Assembly (NCBI RefSeq): GCF_019112545.1 | Contig: NW_025064885.1 | Coordinates: 1,783,187 to 1,847,186, forward strand | Direction of reading: 5' to 3' | Origin: Guyanagaster necrorhizus | Lineage: Eukaryota > Basidiomycota > Agaricomycetes > Agaricales > Physalacriaceae | Length of the DNA stretch: 64,000 bases | In this document: positions 1-39,105 of the stretch, one piece after another | Numbering within the stretch: the first letter of the stretch is position 1 | Layout of the letters: each line of letters begins with the position of its first letter | Translations under genes and position numbers: made by a program | The notes under the pieces: model-generated | Told to the model about the DNA's origin: nothing | What the model saw: only the letters and a program-made list of their open reading frames with translations | Databases searched by the model: none

Positions 1-538
1 GAGACGGTTCCTCGAAGATGGGTGAAAATGCGCCTCTCTCATACGAAGCCGGGGGGTCATTCATCTTGCTACGTGCAGAAGGCGAGCCGTCACCCCACTG
101 GCTGCCAGAATGGCATTGGCTGACGGTAGAACCCTCTGAGCTCATTTCGTCGTCGGCGTCACCGTCGGTGGAAGAAGTGTGTAGGGCTGGAGACTGAATA
201 AAATTGAACAGGGGCGGAATGCACGCTTCAGCGTGCGCTCCTTTAATAACAGACGCGTTGGCCGCGACAGCTAACCCTTGAGAAAAATCCTGCTCTGCAC
301 AACGGCCTACAAGACGAGAGTCCTCCTCCCAAATCCTGCGAGGCTTTGTCCTCCTCCACGATGGCAGCGAGTTGATCCACTGCTCGCGGGTGCCAAAGGA
401 GGGAGGTGGGCCCGTGGGGGCCACGGGGAGAGAGCAAGTTAGAGTGAAAAAGGGATTGGAATGGCCGTCGTCGATGTGATACTTCTTGATAACGGGATGC
501 GCAGGCTGCTTTGAGTGAACTGGAACTGGAACTGGCAT
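1..538 (-). CDS. Conserved-looking unknown protein, cut by the left window edge
   Basis: The minus strand is open from an ATG at 538 to the window edge, 179 codons without a stop, so the 3' part of the gene lies outside. The frame also stays open upstream to about 790, where a TAG lies at 791-793, so the true start may be an upstream exon and the ATG at 538 may be internal. The product is rich in Pro and Ser. It carries a compact charged stretch, HPVIKKYHIDDGH, followed by REQWINSLPSWRR, which reads like a folded or conserved segment. I do not recognise a named domain and assign no function. The long open frame, rather than any homology, is the main support. Confidence 0.5.
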   Translation of the reverse strand, partial: MPVPVPVHSKQPAHPVIKKYHIDDGHSNPFFTLTCSLPVAPTGPPPSFGTREQWINSLPSWRRTKPRRIWEEDSRLVGRCAEQDFSQGLAVAANASVIKGAHAEACIPPLFNFIQSPALHTSSTDGDADDEMSSEGSTVSQCHSGSQWGDGSPSARSKMNDPPASYERGAFSPIFEEPS

Positions 539-1029
539 CTGCAGCTGAAAAGAACCAGAGATATCGACCACTACAGGCACAACAGAGTCAGCAGTGATGT
601 CGATAACCGGATCCACGGTCGCTCTTCCGACTGAAGGAGCGGGAGACTCGAGAGAGCGAGGAAAAAGGAGGTCGTAAGGTGTGTCGTGAAAAGAGAAGAG
701 AAGAAAAAAAAATCGGGGTCGAGAGCTGTCGAAGGTCGAATCGATGGCGGACGCACAGCAAAGGCGTGCCTTTTGGATGGTACGAGCTAGCTACTGGGCT
801 GCTGGGGAAAAAACGCAAAGGTGGCGTCCTTGGCTGCTGCCGGGGAAGCCTGTGCCTGCTCTTCTTTCAGCAAGGCAAGGAGCACAGTGTACCCTCTTCA
901 GTCTCGGCTGACGATGGTATATGGAATAGAGAGACCTGGCAACAAAATCGACGGGATGAGGTCGATGTCGCACACGGTGGAGGGTTGGTCACTTTTTAAG
1001 CTGACTGCCACGCCTTATATACCTATATA

Positions 1030-1879
1030 TCTGCTTAGGTAATCGGTTATGACTCGGTTGCTCCGTCCGACATGTGAACGCCCCAGCACGGCAATGAGAC
1101 ACGAATGTAATTGAATCTAGTAATAATATAACAGCAGCCCCTACCCTCACCGTCCAACTGCGCCGCTGCCTGCGCTTGGCCTAGGTAGTCGTAGCATCGC
1201 GATACCTCCTCCTGATATCCTATTCTGAAAAAATTTCCTGATCGATCGCCACACCATACCCCGTGCACAAACCCGGAGCCCTATGTATCACTGGATAGTA
1301 CCTTCACTGAATCGGGGGTACCAAGTACATTTACGACATTCCATAATTTACGCAGAATATGGGTGGAACTCGGTGCAAATCTAATTCAGATCAACGGCGG
1401 GGGCACGAAAGAGCTAGCCCTCGACCTCCAAACACGTGTTGGTACCATGAGCCACTGCGGGATCCCGACAGTTCGAGCCAATGAAACATGCCCAGAATAC
1501 CAATCAAGCCACCAGATGTGAAACAATATCAGTAATAGAACCTCGGACAAGGACGGCAGAGACAGAAACGTTTCGGAGATTGGACAACAAAATCGACATG
1601 GAAGAAACATTCCTTGGTGACACATAAGAACCTACATAAAGAAGTTCTAGTATCTACTCCGAAGATACTCACATTCCAATCCATGTGAGTATCAGATTCG
1701 AACATCGAACAGCGAACAGCAAGATAAAACTCCCAAGATAAGCGTCAATTGCCATTGGACGGAGGTCGGCCCGATTTGGATCATGACGTATATAGTTGAT
1801 TGGCTACAAGCTTCGTTCCAAGCAATCCATTCCTTTTGCAATATTACTCTGCTCATCCAAGTTCATCAGACGCGTCAAA
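1030..1879. other. Intergenic region upstream of the STRIP1 homologue
   Basis: No convincing coding frame, RNA gene or repeat was seen here. Short open frames lack recognisable protein sequence. It presumably holds the promoter and 5' leader of the plus-strand gene that starts at 1880. Confidence 0.4.
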
Positions 1880-20615: not shown

Positions 20616-22176
<1,561 letters not shown>

Positions 22177-22923: not shown

Positions 22924-23780
22924 CTATACGACAACCTTTCCAGCTGGGTCGTTGGTCATATAGCCTATCGATGCCTCAATAATCAATTCCACTATTGCCA
23001 CCTCTTCCTCGTTGCGTGGTGCGTAAATAAACGTCCACTCTGTCGGTGGGCCGGGAACGCCTGGGCCCGCCAGCGGATGTCGCTGTCCCCATCCCTTCGA
23101 CACAACTTCCTTCCCATCTTGGGCGGCTAGGGCAAGATGCAAGGTGTAGTCATGGTAATCATGCATGTGCGCGATCTCCCTCTTTGTTCTGCGCACGGTG
23201 TCGTGACTTGGGATGTTTTTTGCATCGTTGATGGGTACGGAGGGGAGCAGGAAGATTGCTTCGGCGTGGAACTCGAACTTGGATAGGCTGAGATGGGTGA
23301 GGTCGGTATGACGAGCTTGCACACGTGGAATGACTGTAGCTTTGAGTTCTTTGAGAGCAAACTCGGGGTCAGGCGTCTGGTTGCGCTGTGGATCGTCTCA
23401 ATTAGCTATTGCGTGACGACGGCAAGCAACATTTTTCTCACTTGTCTTTGGATTATATGGCTGGTTGTGACGGGCCGCGGGCCATTGCGAGGAGGCAAGT
23501 CAGGTAGCCACCTGCGCTTCTCGGGAAGGTGGTCATATATCGCGAGGCCCTTTTGCTCCTGACGGAATAAGGAGAGGACACAGACGATGATGTATCCCTT
23601 GATGTTCTGAGGAGCGTAGGAGGGGCCGCCAGATAGGAAGGTCTGGTAGTCCCTGCGAATGTAAGGGAAAGCGATGGCAGAGGCGACTGCCATAGTACAA
23701 CAAGCGACAGCTAAGCTGCGATTCTTGATACCAAAGAGATATCTGACGAGGTCGAATTTCATGCTGTCAATGAAGGACAT
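22924..23780 (-). CDS. luz: Fungal luciferase (3-hydroxyhispidin-dependent)
   Basis: Two exons (23780-23442 and 23385-22924, intron of 56 bp) splice to 266 residues, essentially the length known for fungal luciferases. The N-terminus has a membrane helix (LAVACCTMAVASAIAF), then RRDYQTFLSGGPSYAPQN, GYIIVCVLSLFRQEQKGLAI and LPEKRRWLPDLPPRNGPRP. The second exon carries VIPRVQARHTDLTHLSLSKF, SHDTVRRTKREIAHMHDYHD, TLHLALAAQDGKEVVSKGWG, RHPLAGPGVPGPPTEWTF and IEASIGYMTNDPAGKV. These segments match the luminous-mushroom luciferase family from start to end. Luz oxidises 3-hydroxyhispidin with O2 to a high-energy intermediate that decays to caffeylpyruvate with green light. The frame is intact. The C-terminus stops a few residues earlier than the Neonothopanus enzyme as I recall it. 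Confidence 0.96.
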
Positions 23781-24234
23781 GCTATGTAATGCTGAAAACG
23801 ATATCTTCAAACATACGAGCCTTATACCATACCTGGTTATTCCCTCGATACAGCGACACCGGTGAGGCGTTAAATATACACCGACAGGGTCATCAATGTC
23901 GGGAGAAGTACTCAATCTTCTCGTCATTGTCAGGAACTTTCATCTCACCGGAGAACCAGGAGCCGTGGATTTCGGTTTACGCCAGTTAGTATTCCATTCA
24001 TGTTGTCAAGCTCTATCCTCTCTGGGCTGGGTACGTGTTATAGCCTTTGACCCATGGTGCTAATCTTCATGCTCAGATTTGGTTTATCTGGCCAAAACAC
24101 TAGTACCCCGTGCCGGGGACAATCGGGCTGTAAAAGGCTTTCGAGCTGGATAGTTGGGATTCTGTATCTCAAGACCGAATCTTCAGCTTGTCTTCTCGGT
24201 GTTCTAATTCAAGCATACGTTTTACGTATCTACA
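23781..24234. promoter_or_regulatory. Shared divergent promoter of luz and h3h
   Basis: Only 454 bp separate the luz ATG (23780, minus) from the h3h ATG (24235, plus). Luciferase and luciferin-producing hydroxylase therefore share one upstream region and may be co-regulated. No specific factor site could be assigned. Confidence 0.6.
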
Positions 24235-25938
24235 ATGCAACAAATCGACGAAGTGTGCCCATTGAAAGTGATCGTTGTAGGTGCTGGACTTGGGGGCCTT
24301 TCTGCTGCCATTGCCCTTCGTAGGCAAGGCCATTGTGTCCATGTAGGTTTCTCAAAATCTCCTATAGACCATCAGGTGATGAAGTCGCCTTCCAAGATAC
24401 TGGAATCGTCAAGTTTCAAGAGCGAACTTGGCGCAGGTCTCGCAGTACCGCCCAATACTGTACGCTCACTTCGAGGCCTAGGCTGTAACATCGACAATCT
24501 CAAGCCTGTGGATAATCTTTGTGTACGTCCTTATTTTATTGCCTTTTTTTGGGAAACAAAACCCATATTTCCTGTAGTTCACTGCCATGGCGCATGACGG
24601 AAGTCCTGGTATGATGAATAACATGACGGACTATGGCCAGGCGTATGGAGATGTAAGGATTTTAATGCTTTCTTTTACCCGCTAAGCTATTCATGAACAC
24701 TTGGAAGCCTTGGGTAATGGCGCATCGTGTTGACCTTCACAATGAGCTCATGCGAGTGGCCCTTGAACCCGAAAAAACGGGACCTCCTGCCCAGCTTCGT
24801 CTGGACAGCCAGGTGGCATCTTGCAATGTAGATGCCTGTACCGTTTCTCTTGTCGACGGAACAATTTATTCCGCTGATCTTATCGTTGGTGCAGACGGAA
24901 TTAGGGTGTGCCTCAAATTCTTTCACTGGTAGTGATGATCGTGCTAATGAGAAGCTTAGTCTACCATACGCTCCTATGTTTTGGACGCAGAAATAGACAT
25001 ACCTCCTACCGGTATCGCTGGATACCGTTGGCTCACACCTGCAGAAGCTTTGGAGCCATATCCCGAACTCGACTGGATCATCAAGAACCCACCCCTAGGA
25101 GCACGTTTAATCACAGCTCCTGTACGCCGAAACGACAGCATTGAGCAGTCGGGTCCTGCTCCTATTTCTGAGAAGGCTGACAAGCGTACGATCATCATCT
25201 ACGCGTGCCGGAATGGTACTATGCTTAACGTTCTCGGTGTACACGATGACCCTCGCAACCAGAACGAAGTTGGTAAGCCTTCAGGAGAGCGGGGTTTTCT
25301 CAGTTTATTAATTCTACCCCAGGATGGAACGTGCCAGTTACCCAAGAAAGTTTGCTGGATTTTTTTAAAGACTATCATCCCCGATTCAAGCGTCTGCTTG
25401 AGCTGGCTGACAATGTTCATCTGTGGCAAATGCGCGTCGTCCCGCGGCTTGAGACTTGGATCAATAAACGCGTGTGTTTGTTGGGCGATTCTGCGCATGC
25501 ATCATTACCAAGTACGGTCGACCTGCATGTTATATCGTGCGACTTGCTGACAACTATCTAATGCAGCACTCGGTCAAGGCTTCGGGATGGGACTTGAGGA
25601 TGCCGTAGCCCTTGCAACCCTCCTTCCGATGGGAACCAAAGTGTCTGACATCGAGAACCGCCTCGTCGCCTACGAAAGCTTGCGTAAGGGGCGCGCTGAG
25701 TATGTGGCCATGGAATCGTTCGAACAACAGAATATCCCGGAAAAGCGAGGCTTGTATCTCAGGTGTAAGTGGTCTATTTCTTCAGTACATCGTACTAAGG
25801 CACAATTTTGAAGCTTCTATGATGCGTGACGAAATCATGGGTTATGATGTCAAAGCCGAGGCTGAGAAGGTTTTTAAAGAATTAATGACCTCGACTGATA
25901 AGGTTACATACCGTCCCCATGTGGACTGTCTATGGTAG
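24235..25938 (+). CDS. h3h: Hispidin 3-hydroxylase (FAD-dependent monooxygenase)
   Basis: Eight exons (24235-24342, 24397-24522, 24578-24652, 24708-24905, 24960-25272, 25323-25511, 25567-25764, 25814-25938) give 443 residues in one frame. The FAD dinucleotide loop is VIVVGAGLGGLSAAIALRRQ; the DG motif is SADLIVGADGIRSTIR; the second FAD motif is KRVCLLGDSAHASLPT followed by LGQGFGMGLEDAVALA. Segments such as ELGAGLAVPPNTVRSL and HRVDLHNELMRVAL match the hydroxylase of luminous fungi. The enzyme uses NAD(P)H and O2 to turn hispidin into 3-hydroxyhispidin, the luciferin. The C-terminal tail (TDKVTYRPHVDCLW) is longer than in the Neonothopanus enzyme as I recall it. It looks fully functional. 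Confidence 0.95.
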
Positions 25939-27186
25939 AACCTCCGAGTCAATACATCGTATCTCTATCATATCCGTCTTCCTCAAGCAATGAGACAGAC
26001 AATTCAAATATCCATAGTGCACCGAACTATGACCGAGCCGAGGAAACTGAAACAATGTTGATTGTCGAAGGTGAGAGTACGAAACGCACACCGCCCTACA
26101 CCGTTTGACATTCTTTTGAAGCGATTGGACTCAGTAACTTGGAATCGGGAGATGCAGGCAAATTTCTCCCAGGATCATATAAGTAACTTCTAAGTAGCTT
26201 GTGCGTCAGCGAAGACTCGAAGACAGGGGAAGTGGAACCATTTGAATGTTTGAATGTTTGTCATACCTCCCCTATAGGTTGGTGACATCTCTTATCCGGT
26301 CCCTTGCACCTCAGGCTGTAATCACATCTGAGATCGCACAGCCTATGCGGTTACCAGCAAATTTTGTCATAGGCACAGCATCTAATAATGTCACTGAAGC
26401 TGAAACTTTAGACTGTTCCGATAAACCGGCACCGGCGGTTACGATGTAGAACTTGTATCCTCTTTCAAAGTCATGTTTCTCACCAATTGTTATCCAGTTG
26501 TCTTCGGCGGCAAAAATTTGCGGTATCGGTGTTTTTTTTTCCCAGAGTTTAGATACGTCTGGTGTTTGTTCTAAATGTATACGAATTAGTACATTTTTGT
26601 ACCTTCATACAATGTATGTTCGACTTTTGGTCCATGTTGAGTTGCCGTATCGTCCGGGCATTCCTGATCCTCACACAGAACGGTATATTGTCTAAGTCTT
26701 AAGACGGAACTAAGTACTGCGTAAGAACGTCTTTGAACCCACTTGCCCGACAGGCCGCAATTCTAATATTCAATAACGATCATCTTTTTTAACGTTAAAA
26801 AGATGATCTTTCACCTGTCTAAAGACATGACGTTGCAGCCAGGCTCTGTGAATGATACTCCCGGCGGCGTCAGGTTGGTCCAAAACCCATATCTGCACCT
26901 TTAGAGACGAGGATAGAATGTTGACTTTGATGGACAGTGGAGTCGGTACGCTTGCGAACAGTGTCGCAAAGGGGAAGACTACCTCCCTTTAGTAGTTCGA
27001 AACACTACTTAATGGGCCCGTTAAGATTGTGATATGTATGAGCATCTGGATGTGGTTCATAGTGAGGCAGTCGTGGTTTCGTGAAATGGAGTAGTACCCT
27101 GGTAGATCTGAAGTTGGTTTACGGTTGCCTTCAATTAAAGAAATACCAAACTGTATTGTCTCTTTGGGTGCTACGATTCTAAGCCA
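25939..27186. other. Convergent interval between h3h and cyp450
   Basis: About 1.25 kb without convincing coding sequence. It contains a near-perfect inverted repeat at 26778-26808 and a short tandem tttgaatg array near 26240. It separates the two divergent gene pairs of the cluster. Confidence 0.4.
26778..26808. repeat. Near-perfect 31-bp palindrome
   Basis: The arms gatcatcttttt and aaaaagatgatc flank taacgtta, so both strands read almost the same (6 T against 5 A in the arms). It could form a hairpin in RNA or DNA and lies between the 3' ends of h3h and cyp450. Its function is unknown. Confidence 0.75.
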
Positions 27187-29155
27187 TTAGGCAGTTTTTC
27201 TATAATATAACCCGATTCTGCAATTATTTATTCTTCTTACGAACCAATCGTCGACCAAAAGCTGTACGGTATGATAAGTTGGAGCTTGGCCACAAAGAAG
27301 AGGAACTTACAGCGCGATCAGGATGCTCACACATAACATCAAACCGCTTAAATATGGAAGCAAGAACAATGCGAAGCTGAACCATTGCTAAGGTTTTGCC
27401 TATGCATGCTCTGGATCAATAAAAATGTTAATGAGAAACCGACAGTCCACCGAACAGAGACAAGGTACTCACGCTGGTCCATCAGAGAAAGGTTTGAATG
27501 CTCTTCTCACCACCTCGCTGCTTAGGTTAAGCCAACGGTCAGGATTGAAGGTTTCAGCATCATCTCCCCAAATCAAAGGGTTGTGATGAAGGCTATAGAT
27601 ATGTACACCGACAGTGGTCCCTGCAACAATGTCGTTGCCGGAAATTGACATACCACCCTCGGGGACGACTCGCGGAAGACCACCTGGGACAGCAGAGTAC
27701 ATGCGAAGGGTCTCGTTAATGCATGCGCCGAGATACGGCAGCTGTTGGACGTCTTCGATGGAGACAGAACAATTCCTAGGTATGTGTGCATCGAGCTCGG
27801 CATGAAGGTTCGCCTGAATTTGAGGCGACCTTGATATATAGTAGATGGCAGCGGCGAGGGAACTAGAATAAGTAAGTCGAAACCTCGAGTACTAAGTATA
27901 CACAAACAAACTTTCTTGTCGTATCGGAGCCCGCAACAAGTATTGTCAGCACTTCAGCGATTAATGATTCTTGTGCAGATGTCTATGGGGTAAATCAGTT
28001 ATAATATTTGGTAACGTTCTAGGTCCTTTACTTGTGGGTCCTGTCGCTGAAGGAATTCTCCAACGAGATCCATGGTACCTCCTTGGATCCCAAGGGATAA
28101 ACGTTGCGACAACAGATACGCGACGGTCTTGGCGACCAGTAACCCGTTTTTTAACGGTCCTCGCAGGATAGCATGACCCAATGGCTTCCACCAAGCCGGG
28201 AGTATCCCAACGAAGTAATTATATGTCTCCCGGCTACCAGTGATATGCATGAGGGATATTTCCATAGTTCCCTCTGGTCTTTCATCGTCAAGAATGAGAC
28301 GTGCGTCCTTAGGAATAGTGACAATGTCTTTGGCTGCCATGACCATACCAAAAGACTTGCCAAAAATAAAATCACTCATGGAATCGAAGGCCAAAAAGGC
28401 GCACCCTATTATTCGTATGAGGATCAACAAGAAGGAATTAAAGAGGTAAATTTAAGGCTTACATGGAAGACAGTCGAACCAGACGCATTGGACATCCCTA
28501 CTTTTGGATGGATCTGCGAAGCGAGTATCCCACTCCTTGAGAAGAAGGTCGACAACACAAGTTATCCGAGGAGCAAACTCAGAGACAGTTTTTGGTGTAA
28601 AAAAATGATACATCATCTTTCGCTTTTGGACGTGTTCAGTTTTTTGGCGGGTTGCGAAGATAGATGGAAGTCCAATGGTAGCAAAGGCGTCGTAAAAGTT
28701 GGATTTCGTGACGCACGAGCCTCGGGAGTAGATAGCAGAAAAGGCACTGGGACTGCAGAAGGAAAGTTCGGAAGGCGAGATACGAACTACTGGACCTGTA
28801 GAAAAGATGACCCTTAAATTAAGGCAGCACACAGAGTAGTATACCTGAAAGACTCACCGTATTTTCTATGCATCTCATGTAGTATTTGTGAACGGCGAAG
28901 AGTCCACCCAGTGCACACAAGCCAGAGATAAGAGAATTTGGCAAGGAACGGGCCTGGATATCTTCGCAAGCTATATCGATCCATCCAGTAGGCATACACA
29001 TTGAGAGCGACAAGAACGAAGACGACTTTTCCGATGAGGAAGGATGTACTAAGGATTCCGATATAGGTGAACTCCATCGTGGCTTGGACGGCAGGCTGAA
29101 GAACCTGCCTTTTTATTTCTTTTAGCGACAGTGCCACTAGCGAGGATGTAGACAT
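27187..29155 (-). CDS. cyp450: Cytochrome P450 of the bioluminescence cluster
   Basis: Seven exons splice in frame to 520 residues from the ATG at 29077, or 546 from the ATG at 29155. Either start precedes the membrane helix MEFTYIGILSTSFLIGKVVF. After the proline-rich hinge RRYPGPFLA come the C-helix region VQKRKMMYHFFTPKTV, WCAFLAFDSMSDFIFGKSFG, the I-helix oxygen-binding LTILVAGSDTT, the K-helix ETLR, FNPDRW, and the heme loop FSDGPAACIGKTLA with the Cys ligand. The Arg usually found two residues before Cys is Ala. A P450 is part of the luciferase cluster in luminous fungi, but its reaction is not settled; it may act in supplying or modifying the caffeate precursor. The last exon (27261-27187) is the least certain part. 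Confidence 0.85.
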
Positions 29156-30077
29156 TATTTCACAACATGTGATCCGGGTAGGACAGGATCTATATTTCGA
29201 ATCTGAAGTCAAACAAACGGCCGAGAGGTGAGGAGCCAGAGAGGACAGCACGGAGACGATTTCATACTCCGGGCGAGACACAGCTTCTGAAACCCCGAGT
29301 TACCATAGCCTATAGCGCCAAGCAACAAGTTTATCAATCATCTCCAGAAGATCGTTATTTCGTGTTGTACCATCTGCAGGGAGTCGCCGCGGAAATGCAT
29401 CAATCAAGAATAGTCTTGACGCCACGAGATGCCTGTCAGAAAAGTGAATTCAGTACAAGAATAAATGTGTATCGTGTCGAACTCTGCAAAAATCCCGGGT
29501 GCCTCGCGCTGTGAGGGGAACTCTCGGTGAGGGGAACTCTCGGCTGTGGGAAGACCCGGAAGGACGACGACGCCGATCAACCAAAATGGCAATCTATCGT
29601 AATCCATTGAATGACTTACCCCTTCATGCAGATCATTGAGTCTGGTTTACAAGACTAGATTTTTTTGGTCCTCCTCTCTGGGTCTTTGTTAATATAAAGA
29701 ATTTGGACAGTGCAATTTCGAAGTATATGAACAATATGCAATGGCAGATGTTTCTGGTCTAACAATGATTTTTATGCTGATCCGATTTGTACAGTGCAAT
29801 TCCGTGTATGTTGGATATCGTTCAGATCTTCTCAAGATCTTCCTGATCAATTCAGCTTTGGCCAGTCTCGCCGCCAGTCTGCAGCCGGCCGCCAGAATAA
29901 TAGTGTCCCGGAGGTTTTCATCCCTTCCTCAGGATCATAATTTCGCTAGCAATGCAAGCGTTCTTCCTGTCAAAAACCTCGGGGGACGGAACATGAATGG
30001 AATGGTCTTGTTCAGCATGAAATGGGATGGCACTTCTCATAAGGATCACTTGGCTCGTAGTATGAATCCCCGCAACC
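29156..30077. promoter_or_regulatory. Shared divergent promoter of cyp450 and hisps
   Basis: About 0.92 kb lie between the two start codons on opposite strands. The interval contains a perfect 16-bp tandem duplication at 29511-29542 and an AUG-starting short frame at 30062 that overlaps the hisps start. No protein-like sequence was found in it. Confidence 0.5.
29511..29542. repeat. 16-bp direct repeat, two perfect copies
   Basis: The unit gtgaggggaactctcg occurs at 29511-29526 and again at 29527-29542 with no spacer. It lies in the cyp450-hisps promoter interval, so it could be a duplicated regulatory site; this is inference. Confidence 0.8.
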
Positions 30078-30091
30078 ATGGCGGCCGATAG
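30062..30091 (+). promoter_or_regulatory. Possible upstream ORF overlapping the hisps start
   Basis: An ATG at 30062 opens nine codons (MNPRNHGGR) and stops at 30091. It begins 16 bases before the hisps ATG at 30078 and runs through it in another frame. If the transcript starts upstream, it could reduce translation of hisps. The transcript start is not visible from sequence. Confidence 0.35.
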
Positions 30092-33000
30092 GCACTTTTC
30101 TCTTCTCGATGTCTTTCTCGACGTTGCCCATAATGCTGAGACGTCACAACGCAATATTTTGGAATGCGGCCTGGACACCTGGACATACTCAGATTTGGAC
30201 ATCATCTCGTCGGCCCTGGCCCAGGATCTCAGTACTACCTTGGGTTGCTCTCCCAGGGTTGCAGTCGTCAGCGAGAACCATCCCTATGTATTTGCTCTCA
30301 TGCTGGCCGTATGGAAGCTTGGAGGAATATTCATCCCCATCGACGTCCATGTTCCCGCCGAGCTTTTAACGGGCATGCTACGCATCGTTGCTCCAGACTG
30401 CGTGGTGATTCCTGAGACTGATCTTTCTAATCAGCGCGTCATCTCTGGTAAGCCTGACGGTACACATAAGATTCATTTGCACTTATTATTCACTGTCCCG
30501 TTCCCTATGCTAGCACTTTACCTCCACGTTATTCCCTTCAATGTCAATGCGTCGACAATGTCTACACTTCGACAGAAATATGTCCTATCTACTCAGAAAC
30601 CCTTGCTGTCTGAGTTCCCTCTTCCTCATGTTGATCGTGCATGCCTCTATCTCTTTACGTCCTCCGCGTCTTCCACCGCCAACTTGAAATGCGTACCTTT
30701 GACTCATGCACTTATCCTCAGCAACTGTCGTTCCAAGCTTGCATGGTGGCGGCGTGTTCGTCCAGAAGAAAACATGGATGGGATGCGTGTTTTGGGGTGG
30801 GCGCCTTGGTCACATATTCTCGCGTACATGCAGGATATTGGGACAGCAACGCTCCTGAATGCAGGCTGCTATGTCTTTGCATCTGTTCCGTCCACATATC
30901 CTACGCAGCACGTAGCCAATGGCCTGCAAGACCCCACTTCAAATATAATCAAGTCGCTTCTCAACCGCCGTATCACGGCGTTCGCATGTGTGCCGTTCAT
31001 TCTTAGTGAACTGAAAGCTATGTGCGACCCAGCTTCCGGTCCGGACGCCAAGGATCAAATGTGCTTGGGAGCTGGGGAGAAAGTGCGTCTTATAAGCACA
31101 CTGCAGAATCTCATCATGTTCGAGTGTGGAGGCGCTGCGCTCGAGGCAGATATCACGGATTGGACCGTCGAAAATGGTATATCAGTCATGGTCGGTATTG
31201 GAATGACGGAGACCGCCGGCACGGTTTTGGCAGCGCGTGCACAAGACGCTCGTTCGAATGGCTATTCTGCCGAAGAGGCTCTCATCGCTGATGGCATACT
31301 ATCATTGGTCGGACCTGACGAGGAGGAAATGGCCTTTGGTTGGTGTTTTCCTCTTTCTTCTTCTATCGCCGTGAGCTGATACTCTATACAGACGGAGAAC
31401 TTGTCGTGAAAAGCAAGCTCATCCCACATGGATACATCAAGTACCACGATTCGGCATTTTCAGTGGACTCAGATGACTGGGTGACGTTCAAAACTGGGGA
31501 CAAATATCAGCGTACACCAGATGGACATTTCAAGTGGCTTGGAAGAAAGACCGATTTTATTCAGGTCCGTGAACACGGTTTTACGCATTAGATAGTGCTG
31601 ATAGTCCGTATAGATGACAAGCAGCGAAACCTTAGATCCCAGACCTATCGAAAAAGCCCTCTGCATGAACCCCATTATCGCAAATGCGTGTGTCATTGGT
31701 GACAGGTTTCTAAGGGAACCTGCGACGGGTGTATGTGCCATTGTCGAGATCAGGTCAGATGTGGATATGGCTTCCGCCGAGGTTGACAGGGAGATTGCGA
31801 ATGTCCTCGCTCCAATCAATCGTGATCTTCCTCCGGCTCTTCGAATAGCATGGTCTCGCGTACTCATAATCCGACCTCCTCAGAAAATACCACTCACAAA
31901 GAAAGGTGAGGTGTTTCGCAAGAAGATTGAAGATATATTTGGCACCTTCTTGGGTGTCGGTGTTACTACCAAGGTGGAAGTGGACCATGAAAGTAAAGAA
32001 GGTCCGGTTTTTCCAGTCTGTATGTTATAAGTCATGCTGATGAACACAATTACTCATTCTAGATGATACGGAACACATCGTGAGACAGGTTGTGAGCAAT
32101 CTTCTTGGAGTCCATGATCCTGAGCTATTGTCTACTTTATCTTTCGCTGAGGTGCGTCTTGTTCTGTAGTCACGCAATGATGTGTGCATTTCATGGCTTT
32201 TTTTTCAGCTCGGGATGACCTCATTTATGGCCGTTAGCATCGTTAACACTTTAAACAAGCATATTGGCGGCCTCGCACTTCCACTTAACTCATGCTACAT
32301 TCATATTGATCTTGATTCTCTTGTAGATGCCATTTCACTTGAACGTGGTCATCGAAAGAACCCTACGCCCTTTTCTTCTAACCCTTTCCTCGCCTTTGAA
32401 TCCAGCCAGCAAAAGGATATGGAGATTGTGATTGTTGGTAAAGCATTCCGTTTGCCCGGCTCACTCGACAATAGCACCTCTCTCTGGGAAGCTTTGTTGT
32501 CAAAGAGTGATTCAGTCATCGGTGACATCCCACCCGATCGCTGGGATCATGCAAGTTTTTACCCCCACGATATATGCTTTACGAAAGCAGGCCTTGTCGA
32601 TGTTTCCCATTATGACTATAGATTTTTCGGTCTCACTGCTACAGAGGCGTTGTACGTATCTCCGACAATGCGCCTCGCCTTGGAAGTGTCATTTGAGGCT
32701 CTGGAGAATGCAAATATTCCCTTATCCAAGTTGAAGGGGACACGAACTGCTGTTTATGTTGCCACTAAAGACGATGGGTTCGAGACACTCTTAAATGCTG
32801 AACAAGGCTACGATGGTATGTTTTTGCTTTAGCTCGAAGATTTTACTCATCAAAATTTAGCCTACACGCGATTCTACGGCACGGGACGTGCTCCGAGTAC
32901 CGCAAGTGGCCGTATAAGCTAGTGTGTACATCCCCTTCCAATGAAGCTATTCGGCCCTCATTTCACATCTAGTCTTCTTGATATTCATGGACCTTCTGTT

Positions 33001-36000
33001 ACCGTTGACACAGCATGCAGCGGAGGCATTGTATGTATAGACCAAGGTATCATCATGCCGAAATTTTCAATGTTACAATTAAAAATTTATTTATTTCTAG
33101 CCATCACTTTTCTGCAATCCGGAGGGGCAGATACTGCTATTGTTTGTTCGAGCAATACGCACTGTTGGCCGGGATCATTTATGTTCGTAGGAGATAGACT
33201 GAACATCAACAAACTTACGGATACCATATAGGTTCCTGACAGCGCAAGGCATGGTCTCTCCAAATGGAAGATGTGCCACATTCACTACAAATGCAGATGG
33301 GTAAGTGCACCTAATACTAGGTATTAGAATCGACTTTCTTACAGTGCAGTAGATATGTACCTTCAGAAGGCGCAGTGGCTTTCGTTCTCAAGACACACAG
33401 CGCAGCAACACGCGACAAAGACAATATACTGGCCGTGATAAAGTCAACAGACGTGTCTCATAACGGCCGTTCTCAAGGGCTAGTTGCACCAAACGTAAAG
33501 GCACAGACAAACCTACACCAGTCGCTGTTACGAAAAGCTGGGCTGCATCCTGATCTAATTAAGTCAGTCACAGACATTTTTCATTGGATGAGTTTATTGA
33601 TTTGTCAATCACAGCTTTATCGAAGCTCATGGAACAGGTCCGGTCGTTTTTTAAAGCAGAAACTCCCCCCTCCCATTTCTTTTCCAGGTACATCTTTAGG
33701 AGACCTTTCAGAAATCCAGGGTATCAATAATGCCTACACCTCATCTCGACCTCGTCCAGCCGGTCCTCTGATCATTAGCGCGTCAAAAACGGTTTTGGGA
33801 CATAGTGAACCAACTGCAGGAATGGCCGGCATCCTCACAACCTTGCTCGCCTTTGAGAAAGAGACGGTTCCTGGTCTCAACCACTTAACGGAACATAATT
33901 TAAACCCTTCGCTTGATTGCTCTGCAGTGCCTCTCCTGATTCCTCACGAGCCTGTTCATATCAGTGGTGCAAAGCCCCATCGAGCTGCGGTTCTGTCAGT
34001 TTTCTAGCCCTACATCTGTTTTTTTACCCCTGTTCTCATATTGATGCAGATCATACGGATTCGCGGGGACACTGGCTGGTACCATCTTAGAGAGTCCACC
34101 TTGCGACCTTACAAGGCCCTTGTCAAACGACATACAAGAACATCCTATGATTTTCGTCGTCAGTGGGAAAACGGTGCCCTCTCTGGAAGCATATCTAGAG
34201 CGGTATTTGGTATTTTTACGGGTCGCAAAACCAAGCGAATTCCATGACATCTGCTACACCACTTGCATCGGGAGGGAGCTGTATAAATACCGGTTCTCCT
34301 GCGTTGCCCGAAACATGGCCGACCTCATTTCTCAAATTGAACATCGACTGACGACTTGTTCCACTTCGAAAGAGAAGCCCCGTGGCTCGTTAGGATTCGT
34401 GTTCTCGGGTCAAGGTACCCAGTTCCCCGGCATGGCAGCAGCACTTGCCGAACGATATTCAGGGTTCCGAGCGCTCGTCTCCAAGTTTGGGCAGATCGCC
34501 CAAGAGCAGTCGGGCTACCCGATCGATAGGCTGCTCCTCGAAGTTACCGATACATTACCAGAAGCAAACAGCGAGGTCGACCAAATTTGCATTTTTGTCT
34601 ACCAATATTCTGTTCTGCAATGGCTGCAACGTCTAGGCATTCAACCGAAAACAGTCCTTGGTCACAGTCTAGGAGAAATTACCGCCTCAGGTACATGTAT
34701 TCCGCTACCCGAATGGAAAATATAGGTTATTGACATAAACTATTAGTCGCAGTTGGCGCCTTCTCTTTTAGGTCTGCATTGGACCTTGTGGTCACCCGCG
34801 CTCGTCTTCTTCGTCCTCAACCAAAATTCTCTGCGGGAATGGCTGCAGTAGCAGCGTCCAAGGAAGAAGTTGAAGGACTTATAGATATGCTCAAACTTGC
34901 GGAGTCGCTGAGCGTTGCGGTTCATAACAGTCCACGGAGTATCGTTGTATCAGGCGCATCAGCTGCGGTCGATGCCATGGTTGTCGCTGCTAAAAAGCAG
35001 GGCTTGAAGGCCTCCCGCTTAAAGGTTGACCAAGCCTTTCACAGCCCTTACGTTGATTCTGCTGTATCGGGGTTGCTCGACTGGTCCAATAAGCATCGTT
35101 CGACCTTCCTCCCATTGAACATCCCTTTATACTCAACTTTGACTGGCGCGCGTATTCCGAAAGGAGGGAAGTTCTGCTGGGATCACTGGGTGAGATGAGT
35201 CTTGATACATGTATCCACAGGCTTACGATTTGCGCCAAGGTTAATCATGCTCGAAAGCCCGTCCAGTTTGCGGCGGCAGCTGCAGCAATGGACGAAGATC
35301 AATCCATCGGTGTTCTTGTTGATGTTGGACCCCAACCTGTTGCGTGGACCCTCCTTCAAGCGAATAACCTCCTCAATACCTCTTCGATTGCTCTATCAGC
35401 AAAAATTGGAAAGGATCAGGAGATGGCGTTGCTCTCTGCTTTGAGCTACCTCGTCCAAGAGCACAACCTTTCTCTCAGCTTTTATGAGCTTTACTCTCAG
35501 CGTCACGGTACTCTGAAGAAGACAGACGTTCCTACCTACCCGTTCCGTCGCGTCCACCGCTACCCGACTTTCATACCGTCACGGAATAGAAGTCCTGCTG
35601 ACATGAGGGTAGCTATACCACCTACCGACCTCTCTGTCCGAAAGAATGTGGATGCAACACCGCAGTCTCGTCGTGCTGGCCTGATAGCCTGTCTTAAAGT
35701 TATCCTCGAGTTAACACCAGGAGAGGAATTTGGTGCGTAGTTACATAAGGCAATGATCAGGTTTATTCTGCATATTAATCCTCCATGTAGACCTTTCTGA
35801 GACTCTCAATGCTCGTGGGGTCGATTCAGTTATGTTCGCACAGTTGCGGAAGCGTGTTGGGGAAGAATTCGACCTAGATATACCAATGATCTATTTATCA
35901 GACGTGTTCACGATGGAACAGATGATTGACTACCTCGTCGAACAGTCCAGCCCCACATCAAAGTTGGTAGAGATTTCGGTTAATCAATCATTAGACGGAG

Positions 36001-36293
36001 AAGGCCTCCGGACAGGGCTTGTATCATGCCTTAGGGACGTACTGGAAATCTCCTCCGACGAAGAACTTGGTGAGTAGCCATTCAGGTACCTATTTCGTGC
36101 CTTGTTGAAATGGGTACCACCAACAGACTTTTCCGAAACTTTGAACGCTCGTGGTACGGACTCAATTATGTTCGCTCAGCTACGAAAACGTGTCGGGGAA
36201 GGATTTGGTCTTGAAATTCCGATGATATATCTGTCTGATGTGTTTACCATGGAAGACATGATCAATTTCCTTGTCTCGGAGCGCTCGTGCTAG
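30078..36293 (+). CDS. hisps: Hispidin synthase, type I polyketide synthase with adenylation domain and three ACPs
   Basis: Eighteen exons add to 5,319 coding bases (1,772 residues) with every junction in phase. Domains in order: AMP-ligase (LYLFTSSASSTANLKCVPLT, GIGMTETAGTV, KTGDKYQRTPDGHFKWLGRK, LTKKGEVFRKKI); ACP1 with Ser in LSFAELGMTSFMA; ketosynthase (VDTACSGG active Cys, FIEAHGTGTSLGDLSE, KTVLGHSEPTAG); acyltransferase (FVFSGQGTQFPGMAAALAER, VLGHSLGEITAS, DQAFHSPYVDSA); ACP2 (ETLNARGVDSVMFAQLRKR) and ACP3 (ETLNARGTDSIMFAQLRKR). No ketoreductase or dehydratase is seen. The enzyme activates caffeic acid and extends it with malonyl units to hispidin, the precursor of fungal luciferin, and needs a phosphopantetheinyl transferase encoded elsewhere. 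The start at 30078 gives SLLDVFLDVAHNAE near the N-terminus, as in known HispS. An apparent stop in the ketosynthase near 32919 falls at a GT donor and is removed by splicing. Confidence 0.95.
35791..36293 (+). repeat. Tandemly duplicated ACP-encoding segment at the end of hisps
   Basis: Exons 17 and 18 encode two nearly identical phosphopantetheine-binding domains, each preceded by an intron at the same phase (G|AC). Shared blocks are SETLNARG, DS-MFAQLRKRVGE and PMIYLSDVFTME. The pattern suggests a recent exon duplication. Confidence 0.85.
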
Positions 36294-37398
36294 TCGGTTG
36301 GCCATATCGCCAGTCGTCGAGACCGTTACTACCAAGTCGCGTTTCTGTTTGTTTGTGAAGCATTTGTACTATTACGCCCTTTTTGCTACAGCTATCTGCT
36401 ATTTGAATTCCAAAATCCATCGGTATTATTCTGGATAGCACAACTACTGGAAGCATTGAAGAATAAATGACATAGATATCCATACAATGACAGTAGTATA
36501 ACAGGAAGGACTGTGTATATATGATTTAGACATGACCCATATAAACAAAGCAGACAGTGTAACAAAACAGTAATGCAATGGTACTAGAACGCGCCAGTAG
36601 AAGTGAATGAGTGCGATGTTAACCATCGGATGATACAAGTGAAGGAAATGACGATCCTGGGAGTCAGACGAATAATTTACACCAACTCAGCAATGTCGGA
36701 AGGGATGCCGCTCCTAAGACCCTCGGCCCAAAGACCGATGCCAGTGCGATGGCCCTACGATATTCGAGACTTGTCAAAGCGAGAAATTGTTCACCGAAGC
36801 TAAATTCAACCAAAATTCAACGTCGTTCGCAAGCTCTCGAAGGAGTCAAGAACAAGTCCGAAATGAGGTCGAGCGGGAGTCCGAAGTTCCTTATGGATGT
36901 GAAACCGGGAATATAGCGAATGAGATCCATATACATGGCGGCAAGACTGATGAAACCGTGGTGAGGGGTGATATGCAGACCAGACGAAGTGAGAACGATC
37001 ACAGACTGCAAAACCCGTGACCCTGACAACGGCACACGCTGACTAGAATCGAAATGATCATTCTGGTAACTTGTTGGCACGATATAGAACAGGGTAGTGA
37101 AGAAGCTTGCTCATTGCCCAAGCAGAGGTTAATGAATGGATGTAAAACTTGTAAATATATGCAGTCCCTGCTCAGAGTCGAGACGTGTTCTGTGCAAGGA
37201 AGGACTCGGAACCGGTCCGTGTGGCTGTGCCGACGCGTCAATCACGTGAGAAAACGTCATAGTTTGCATTTTTGTTTCGCTCACCAACAGACTTGGGTCT
37301 AGGTATTGTTTGCTGATATCACCTCTTGGTTCCGAACCATCACCTTCTACCTTCTGTTACCCTCCCTCACCGTTCTTCCTCTTCCTTCTTATACCACG
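36294..37398. other. Interval between hisps and RCC1; right border of the cluster
   Basis: About 1.1 kb with no convincing coding frame. An atcacgtgag motif lies at 37241-37250, about 150 bp before the RCC1 start. Confidence 0.4.
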
Positions 37399-39105
37399 AT
37401 GCCTCCTCGACGTTCTGCTCGGGCTGCGTCAACCAAACCAGCGTCGAAACCGGCCCCAGTGGCCAAGAAGCCTGCACCACGGTCTCGCTCCAAAAAACGG
37501 CCTGCCTCTCCCGACCACGAAGCCTTACCTCCTCCTGCTAAGCGGAACAAAAGTGAAGAGCAGAACGTAGATCCTGCTGCTGAGAGCAAAGCCACGAAAC
37601 CCCGCACTACCAAAAAACCTAGAATCAAGGCGGATGTTTCTGCTGAAGGAGTCCAGTTGAAGCCTTACCTCAACCCTCTTCCTACGCCATCGGAAACTAA
37701 GCGACCCAGTCTACAGCTCTTTGCATGGGGCGCTGGCAACTTTGGGCAGTTCGGCATGGGCCCTGACGTCCTCGGAGAACTGGACAAGCCACGTAAACAC
37801 CTGTGGGCTGAGAAACAGATACAAGAGGGTGTATTTGGGCTTGATGCCGCAGGCCTTGAAGCCGTGGCGGCAGGTGGCATGCACAGTCTCTTCGTCGATG
37901 AAAGTGGCAAGGTCCGTTGGTCTGTGCCCACTCTTGACCTCTTCCTCAAGTTTTTGATCCCTAGATATGGTCTTGCGGTCTTAACGATGATGCTGCTCTG
38001 GGACGAGTTACGCAGGACGTGCCTGACCCAGAGAATCCTGGGTCATTTATCGATATCGATACGTTGACAAGTATTCCACATCCTTTACAATCCCTTGTAG
38101 AAGAGAAATTCCGGGCGGTGCAGATTGCTACTGGTGACAGTATATGTGCCGCTGTCAGCGCAGAGGGCGATTTGCGAGTTTGGGGTTCGTTCCGAGTATG
38201 TGCATCACGGAACGTGAACCGTCATCCAACTAACACATGTTATCCTCCAGGTCAATGAGGGCTCTCTGGGATTCTCCAACGGGCTGAGACATCAGTTCTT
38301 ACCAGTACCAATATCAATGAATCTCATCCACAAACCGGGCGACACCGAAAAAGTTTCGTCAATCGCAGCAGGTGGCAATCATCTAGTGGTGTTGACCACA
38401 CATGGTAACATTTACACATGGGGTGCTGGCGAGCAAGCTCAGCTTGGAAGAAAAGTGCTTGAACGCCGCAAAATCCATGGCACCGTTCCAGAGAAAGTCA
38501 CCCTGGCTACTCGGGGACGTAAAGGCAAAGTTATCGGTGCTGGCGTCTACCATTCCTTTGCTGTGGATGACAGCGGTGACGTCTGGGGCTGGGGTTTGAA
38601 CACGATGGGCCAATTAGGTACAGGTTACGACAGTGAGGCTGATTCGCAAGTTCAGCTCCCCAAGAAGGTCCACAATTTGAGTCCCGCCGATCTGGGCGGC
38701 GAAACCATCGTCCAGATCGTTGGAGGTGAACATCACACGTTGTTCTTGACGTCTGCTGGAAAGGTGTACGCTTGCGGTCGATGCAATGCCGGACAGCTTG
38801 GGTTACCAGAGGAAATGCTCAAAGATGCCGAGCACAAAGACTTTGTACCCGAACCCGTTCAGGTGCCCTTCCCTGATGACGATGACCCAGTTGTCTACAT
38901 CTCGGCCGGAGTGCACAATAACATGGCTGTTACGAAGGATGGTGCGCTATATTGCTGGGGACAAGGTACGCAGGGCGAGCTGGGTGTTGCAGATGTCGAA
39001 ATTCGAAGACCACATATGATTGTTCGACGGGAAGGTGGTTCATGGGCAGCTGTGAAGGTTGCTTGTGGAGGACAGCATACACTTGGTTTGTTCAGAAAAA
39101 AATAA
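37399..39105 (+). CDS. RCC1-like Ran guanine nucleotide exchange factor
   Basis: Starts MPPRRSARAASTKPASKPAP. The first 80 residues are Lys/Arg/Pro-rich (PAPRSRSKKRPAS), consistent with nuclear import and chromatin binding. A seven-bladed RCC1 propeller follows: LFAWGAGNFGQFGMGP, IWSCGLNDDAALGRVT, LRVWGSFRVNEGSLGFSNG, IYTWGAGEQAQLGRKV, VWGWGLNTMGQLGTGY, VYACGRCNAGQLGLPEEM and LYCWGQGTQGELGVAD. The repeats with Gly-Ala/His-Ser pairs (GGMHSLFV, GGNHLVVL, GGEHHTLFL) are complete. The protein should load GTP on Ran at chromatin, driving nuclear transport. Two short introns are in phase; the gene ends at 39105. Confidence 0.93.

Follow-up and report, generated by a model that had tools for sequence, protein, structure and literature searches.

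Fungal bioluminescence runs on the caffeic acid cycle, in which hispidin synthase (HispS) converts caffeic acid into hispidin, hispidin 3-hydroxylase (H3H) turns hispidin into 3-hydroxyhispidin, and the luciferase (Luz) reacts the latter with oxygen, yielding light and caffeylpyruvate. In passages of a 2024 review, the caffeylpyruvate hydrolase gene, cph, is reported as the FAA hydrolase of Armillaria-lineage clusters, and Guyanagaster is placed at the base of the armillarioid clade (PMC11766655), a clade whose common ancestor has been dated, in part of another source, to 51 million years (PMC5264464). For Guyanagaster itself, the same review passages list hisps and h3h but no more than a “truncate luz,” and give luminescence as undetermined (PMC11766655).

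Here, we analyze a window of 64,000 nucleotides from the wood-rotting, truffle-like fungus Guyanagaster necrorhizus (contig NW_025064885.1, positions 1,783,187 to 1,847,186) that holds such a bioluminescence cluster. Very probably, its luz, h3h, P450, and hispS genes are intact, and a gene of the FAA-hydrolase family, with cph as its likeliest identity, has decayed where it stands. A preliminary description of the window had announced a complete caffeic acid cycle; the light-making core is indeed intact, but “complete” is too strong, since the gene here that probably served recycling, which that description overlooked, is a dead relic. The cluster is of a known kind, and what appears to be new is the intact luz in Guyanagaster together with the decayed cph-like gene, neither of which is stated in the literature passages searched (PMC5264464, PMC11552369, PMC11766655, PMC13295948, PMC10532946), a coverage that falls largely outside subscription papers.

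The clusters of Armillaria and Desarmillaria resemble this locus in Luz (92% identity in Desarmillaria tabescens), in the P450 (80-83% to armillarioid proteins, among the best 120 of 270 matches listed), in HispS (77-84%), and in the tandem C-terminal ACPs common to full-length armillarioid HispS models. They differ in that cph is reported in the Armillaria-lineage cluster (PMC11766655), whereas G. necrorhizus retains a cph-like relic, and in that the Guyanagaster host is gasteroid. Luz and HispS are 79% and 58% identical to the named proteins of Neonothopanus nambi, whose HispS carries one C-terminal ACP rather than two. Mycenaceae (Mycena, Panellus) share Luz at 59-84%, P450 at 44-51% (among the matches listed), and HispS at 53-56%, as well as the lack of a working cph in the cluster, according to passages on Panellus stipticus (PMC12653593) and on the mycenoid lineage (PMC11766655); in those fungi, however, cph is reported as absent or located elsewhere, while the relic is still in place in G. 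necrorhizus.

The luciferase gene

In the DNA of G. necrorhizus, luz is not truncated. Its product carries the Luciferase domain PF17648 (Pfam, E 4.9e-20), aligns without gaps to the D. tabescens protein (266 vs 266 amino acids), and is a fungal luciferase related to the named Luz of N. nambi, LUZ_NEONM. It keeps 102 of the 105 columns invariant in 15 relatives, an alignment using 15 of 26 matches after short, metagenomic, and distant ones were dropped; the matches were clustered at 90% identity, and the deposited Guyanagaster Luz may fall in the 22-member cluster of P0002. Relative-rate comparisons with D. tabescens gave chi-square values of at most 2.67 in 14 of 14 cases, with no faster evolution, a test that is weak for Luz because few sites differ.

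Luz shows the same degree of conservation as its counterpart in D. tabescens, a species with mycelium that passages of the review list as luminous (PMC11766655); the luz splice sites are standard (GT...AG), and a luz without a use would presumably have decayed as the nearby relic has. These points argue against a fungus whose cluster is intact in the DNA and which is dark nonetheless, luz being silent or intron-retaining and the other genes serving styrylpyrone or antioxidant metabolism, a possibility that we regard as real, if doubtful. It draws on the decay of the cph-like gene, on the published truncated luz with its undetermined luminescence (PMC11766655, in part), and on the luz frame itself, which stops after 124 amino acids when the intron is retained; such a 124-residue product is one possible source of the “truncated luz” statement. 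In P0020, a sequence resembling armillarioid Luz, the frame runs across this intron without meeting a stop.

Elsewhere in the genome, contig C19 holds a distant Luz-like gene (764593-765356; L011, L012), which matches Luz in two pieces at 29% and 52% identity and resembles PF17648 proteins such as P0021.

Hispidin synthase, the putative hispidin 3-hydroxylase, and the cluster P450

Pfam assigns HispS an AMP-binding domain, the N and C parts of KS, AT, and three ACP stretches in the order A-ACP-KS-AT-ACP-ACP, which is the A-ACP-KS-AT-ACP arrangement with a second C-terminal ACP as an extra. KR and DH were not found in HispS by Pfam, and their absence is the published difference of HispS from non-luminous orthologs (PMC9866795, in part). 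The KS motifs VDTACSGG, EAHGTGT, and LGHSE, the AT motif GHSLGE, and the ACP serines in LGMTS, RGVDS, and RGTDS, with both C-terminal ACPs carrying theirs, are present in alignment with 15 relatives (15 of 80 matches, dropping the same species, early-ending models, longer polyketide synthases, and further ones), among which HispS keeps 414 of 421 invariant columns. The model agrees with a deposited G. necrorhizus ketoacyl-synt-domain-containing protein (P0148) at 99.6% over 1772 amino acids with one 6-residue gap, is 83-84% identical to the proteins of D. tabescens and A. solidipes, and finds its named counterpart in HIPS_NEONM of N. nambi.

The published HispS description has one C-terminal ACP (PMC9866795). 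With a profile built from the two C-terminal ACPs of G. necrorhizus HispS itself, two were found in four of eight armillarioid models (G. necrorhizus included), a fragment at the model end in two, and none in two early-stopping ones, while the 16 Mycena models have one in 13 cases, two in one, and none in two, and N. nambi has one. The tandem was therefore rejected as a novelty of the G. necrorhizus gene, being common to all four armillarioid models long enough to include it; no description of tandem ACPs in hispidin synthase was found in the literature searched. The deposited models P0152-P0155 (A. novae-zelandiae, A. fumosa, D. ectypa, A. borealis) end within or before the tandem ACPs and may be annotation cuts.

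The putative H3H is an FAD monooxygenase (FAD_binding_3, E 1.3e-22, Pfam) that adjoins luz, and GAGLGG, GADG, and LLGDSAH can be read in its sequence. The P450 (p450 domain, E 9.7e-64, scored on an earlier 550-residue model whose ends were both later corrected) matches the deposited G. necrorhizus protein P0028 at 99.8% over 513 of 520 amino acids, the differences being the model start and one residue. As expected of the cluster P450, it has orthologs in Armillaria and Desarmillaria; besides AGSDTT, it carries GPAACIG, also present in five of those orthologs among the matches listed. An earlier 522-residue model served as query for the homologue search, and in an alignment of 12 relatives drawn from the best 120 of 270 matches the P450 keeps 123 of 125 invariant columns. 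A broken C-terminus was considered and rejected, as LLVDDWFVRR or a close variant of it forms the C-terminus of P0028 and of several Armillaria/Desarmillaria orthologs; since this ending fits a 49-bp intron, the gene is intact. No role for the cluster P450 in the light reaction is stated in the literature passages searched.

All four genes lie within 13.4 kb (22924-36293), and every frame is full-length once spliced in hand-built models, with introns that begin with GT and end with AG. The preliminary description had drawn the outer limits exactly, with the luz stop codon ending at 22924 and that of hispS at 36293, and its four full-length frames are confirmed by the gene models, by Pfam, and by the deposited P450 and HispS proteins; the H3H and HispS catalytic motifs that it had named, and its P450 motif AGSDTT, are likewise present. 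Its view of a fungal bioluminescence cluster with four functional-looking genes also holds, and Luz and HispS match named N. nambi proteins; the searches that it had proposed, in their Luz and HispS part, returned Neonothopanus, armillarioid, and Mycenaceae homologues.

These named matches already contradict a reading of the genes as light-gene paralogs that do something else, one coding for a luciferase-domain protein and another for a reducing-type polyketide synthase, which we consider highly improbable. The genome does hold the distant Luz paralog on C19, in its two pieces of 29% and 52%, and a 2415-residue polyketide synthase with KR domains is deposited for G. necrorhizus (P0182); yet Luz stands at 79% to the named luciferase, HispS is 58% identical to the named hispidin synthase against 43% for P0182 and has neither KR nor DH, and all four genes are clustered.

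In relative-rate comparisons with D. tabescens, chi-square stays at or below 3.1 in four HispS and four P450 comparisons; with other references, the highest values are 3.38 for HispS vs A. solidipes (four comparisons) and 2.61 for P450 vs A. gallica, and no comparison reaches 3.84. Altogether, luz, h3h, the P450 gene, and hispS look selectively kept.

The relic between h3h and the P450 gene

The 1.2-kb gap between h3h and the P450 gene contains, on the plus strand, a relic resembling an FAA hydrolase encoded on contig C9 of the same genome. Two C9 pieces, out of six FAA-hydrolase pieces from the genome, match 26267-26413 (E 0.027) and 26830-26901 (E 0.005) on the same strand and in the same order. 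Aligning the C9 protein with 26037-27025 yields 213 codons, 90 of them identical, with five frameshifts, two stops, and three deletions, as well as eight longer skips in the DNA that are perhaps introns or insertions; the lesion counts depend on the alignment penalties chosen. The frameshift-aware score of C9 against the gap is 214, compared with a mean of 66.7 (standard deviation 9.2) and a maximum of 110 over 500 first-order shuffles. When 202 equal-length stretches on both strands of the window are scored, the best, starting at 26209, reaches 209, and the next non-overlapping one scores 111 (1-1248, minus strand). As that other stretch exceeds the shuffle maximum, the shuffle null is slightly too kind, but the relic stands far above both. 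Additionally, a whole-genome search with the C9 protein recovers the relic at 26785-26922 (49% over 47 amino acids, with two TAG codons inside, E 0.003).

As an internal control, the relic has seven lesions in 213 codons and the four models, which were spliced to keep their frames, have none in 3001. The cluster holds no working cph, and FAA-hydrolase genes lie elsewhere, on contigs C4, C8, and C9. Because CPH belongs to the FAA-hydrolase family and cph is reported in the Armillaria-lineage cluster, cph is the likeliest identity of the relic, and its place inside the cluster fits that report. It is unlikely, in our judgment, that the relic is instead some other FAA hydrolase, for instance a duplicate of the C9 gene, with the true cph being that of C9 or C4 or never having joined the cluster, even though the C9 protein is the single good match obtained for it (the C4 paralog scores 82 against the gap, within noise, and gives no alignment) and reviews disagree about the time at which cph entered the cluster, as passages in PMC11766655 relate.

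The C4 FAA-hydrolase gene (C4:460116-463874; L013) has a first exon that starts with a signal-peptide-like stretch, perhaps indicating secretion, and is about 41% identical to the C9 protein in part.

Several points weigh against four intact genes beside a decayed cph. The published passages speak of a truncated luz; Luz is changed at three columns invariant in 15 relatives (R61K, P168A, V244I) and HispS at seven; and the splice sites were picked by hand so as to keep frames. The identity of H3H is supported by family, length, motifs, and position, and that of cph by the genome's own FAA hydrolases, rather than by a named H3H or CPH. A Pfam scan of three relic pieces gave no match even at E 10.

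Possible capacity for light and surroundings of the cluster

For this fungus we infer both the enzyme activities and light emission: HispS would make hispidin from caffeic acid, H3H would hydroxylate it to 3-hydroxyhispidin, and Luz would oxidize the latter with oxygen to give light and caffeylpyruvate. Any recycling to caffeic acid would then have to fall to another FAA hydrolase (C9, C4, or C8), if it happens at all, so the pathway may proceed in a single direction, fed by fresh caffeic acid. In a genome search, three contigs carried genes of the phenylalanine-ammonia-lyase family, and three matches to the phosphopantetheinyl-transferase family turned up. Since a luminous strain of P. stipticus is reported without cph (PMC12653593, in part), light without cph is plausible and the relic does not rule it out, so that, judging from its genes, G. 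necrorhizus may be able to glow.

We tentatively entertain, as a possibility somewhat short of even, that it does so, as an undocumented luminous gasteroid fungus in which the caffeic acid pathway is “open,” its light genes selectively kept while the exposed spore surface was lost and its recycling gene left to rot. If true, light may matter for termite-eaten fruit bodies or for mycelial chemistry. A truncated luz, as published, suggests a lost light system, but the DNA says otherwise, which makes the persistence of bioluminescence after the fruit body became closed a directly testable matter. Likewise, if cph is what the decayed FAA-hydrolase gene once was, the relic represents a natural experiment on the need for fuel recycling.

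Table 1. Features of the G. necrorhizus bioluminescence cluster, in window positions
Feature	Position	Strand	Structure	Basis
luz, luciferase	22924..23780	-	266 aa; 2 exons (23442-23780, 22924-23385); intron 23386-23441	gene model, Pfam, relatives
luz/h3h divergent gap	23781..24234		454 bp; presumed promoters	
h3h, putative hispidin 3-hydroxylase (FAD monooxygenase)	24235..25938	+	443 aa; 8 exons, 7 introns	family, length, motifs, position
decayed FAA-hydrolase gene, most likely cph (caffeylpyruvate hydrolase)	26037..27025	+		frameshift-aware alignment, genome search
cluster P450	27187..29077	-	520 aa; 7 exons (28858-29077, 28463-28795, 28032-28405, 27912-27982, 27473-27862, 27311-27410, 27187-27261), 6 introns	gene model, deposited protein, orthologs
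P450/hispS divergent gap	29078..30077		1000 bp; presumed promoters	
hispS, hispidin synthase	30078..36293	+	1772 aa; 18 exons, 17 introns, in frame throughout	gene model, Pfam, relatives

Between the two divergent gaps, the longest common region is 14 bp (from overlapping 12-mers), set aside as a promoter motif because 5 of 100 random pairs had 12 or more. The P450/hispS gap contains, at 29511-29543, a perfect 16-bp tandem repeat with 2.1 copies of GTGAGGGGAACTCTCG, which includes AGGGG; the unit occurs only at these two places in the 53-Mb genome (53.3 Mb, 109 contigs) and is possibly regulatory. A search for tRNA genes found none. The cluster is flanked by ordinary conserved genes, a DEAD-box helicase on the left (20647-21657) and an RCC1-type gene on the right (37303-39102), identified by running Pfam on 20 of 90-odd long flanking frames. 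The contig ends (63618-64000) inside an open frame and without telomere repeats, which places the cluster about 28-41 kb from the assembly break.

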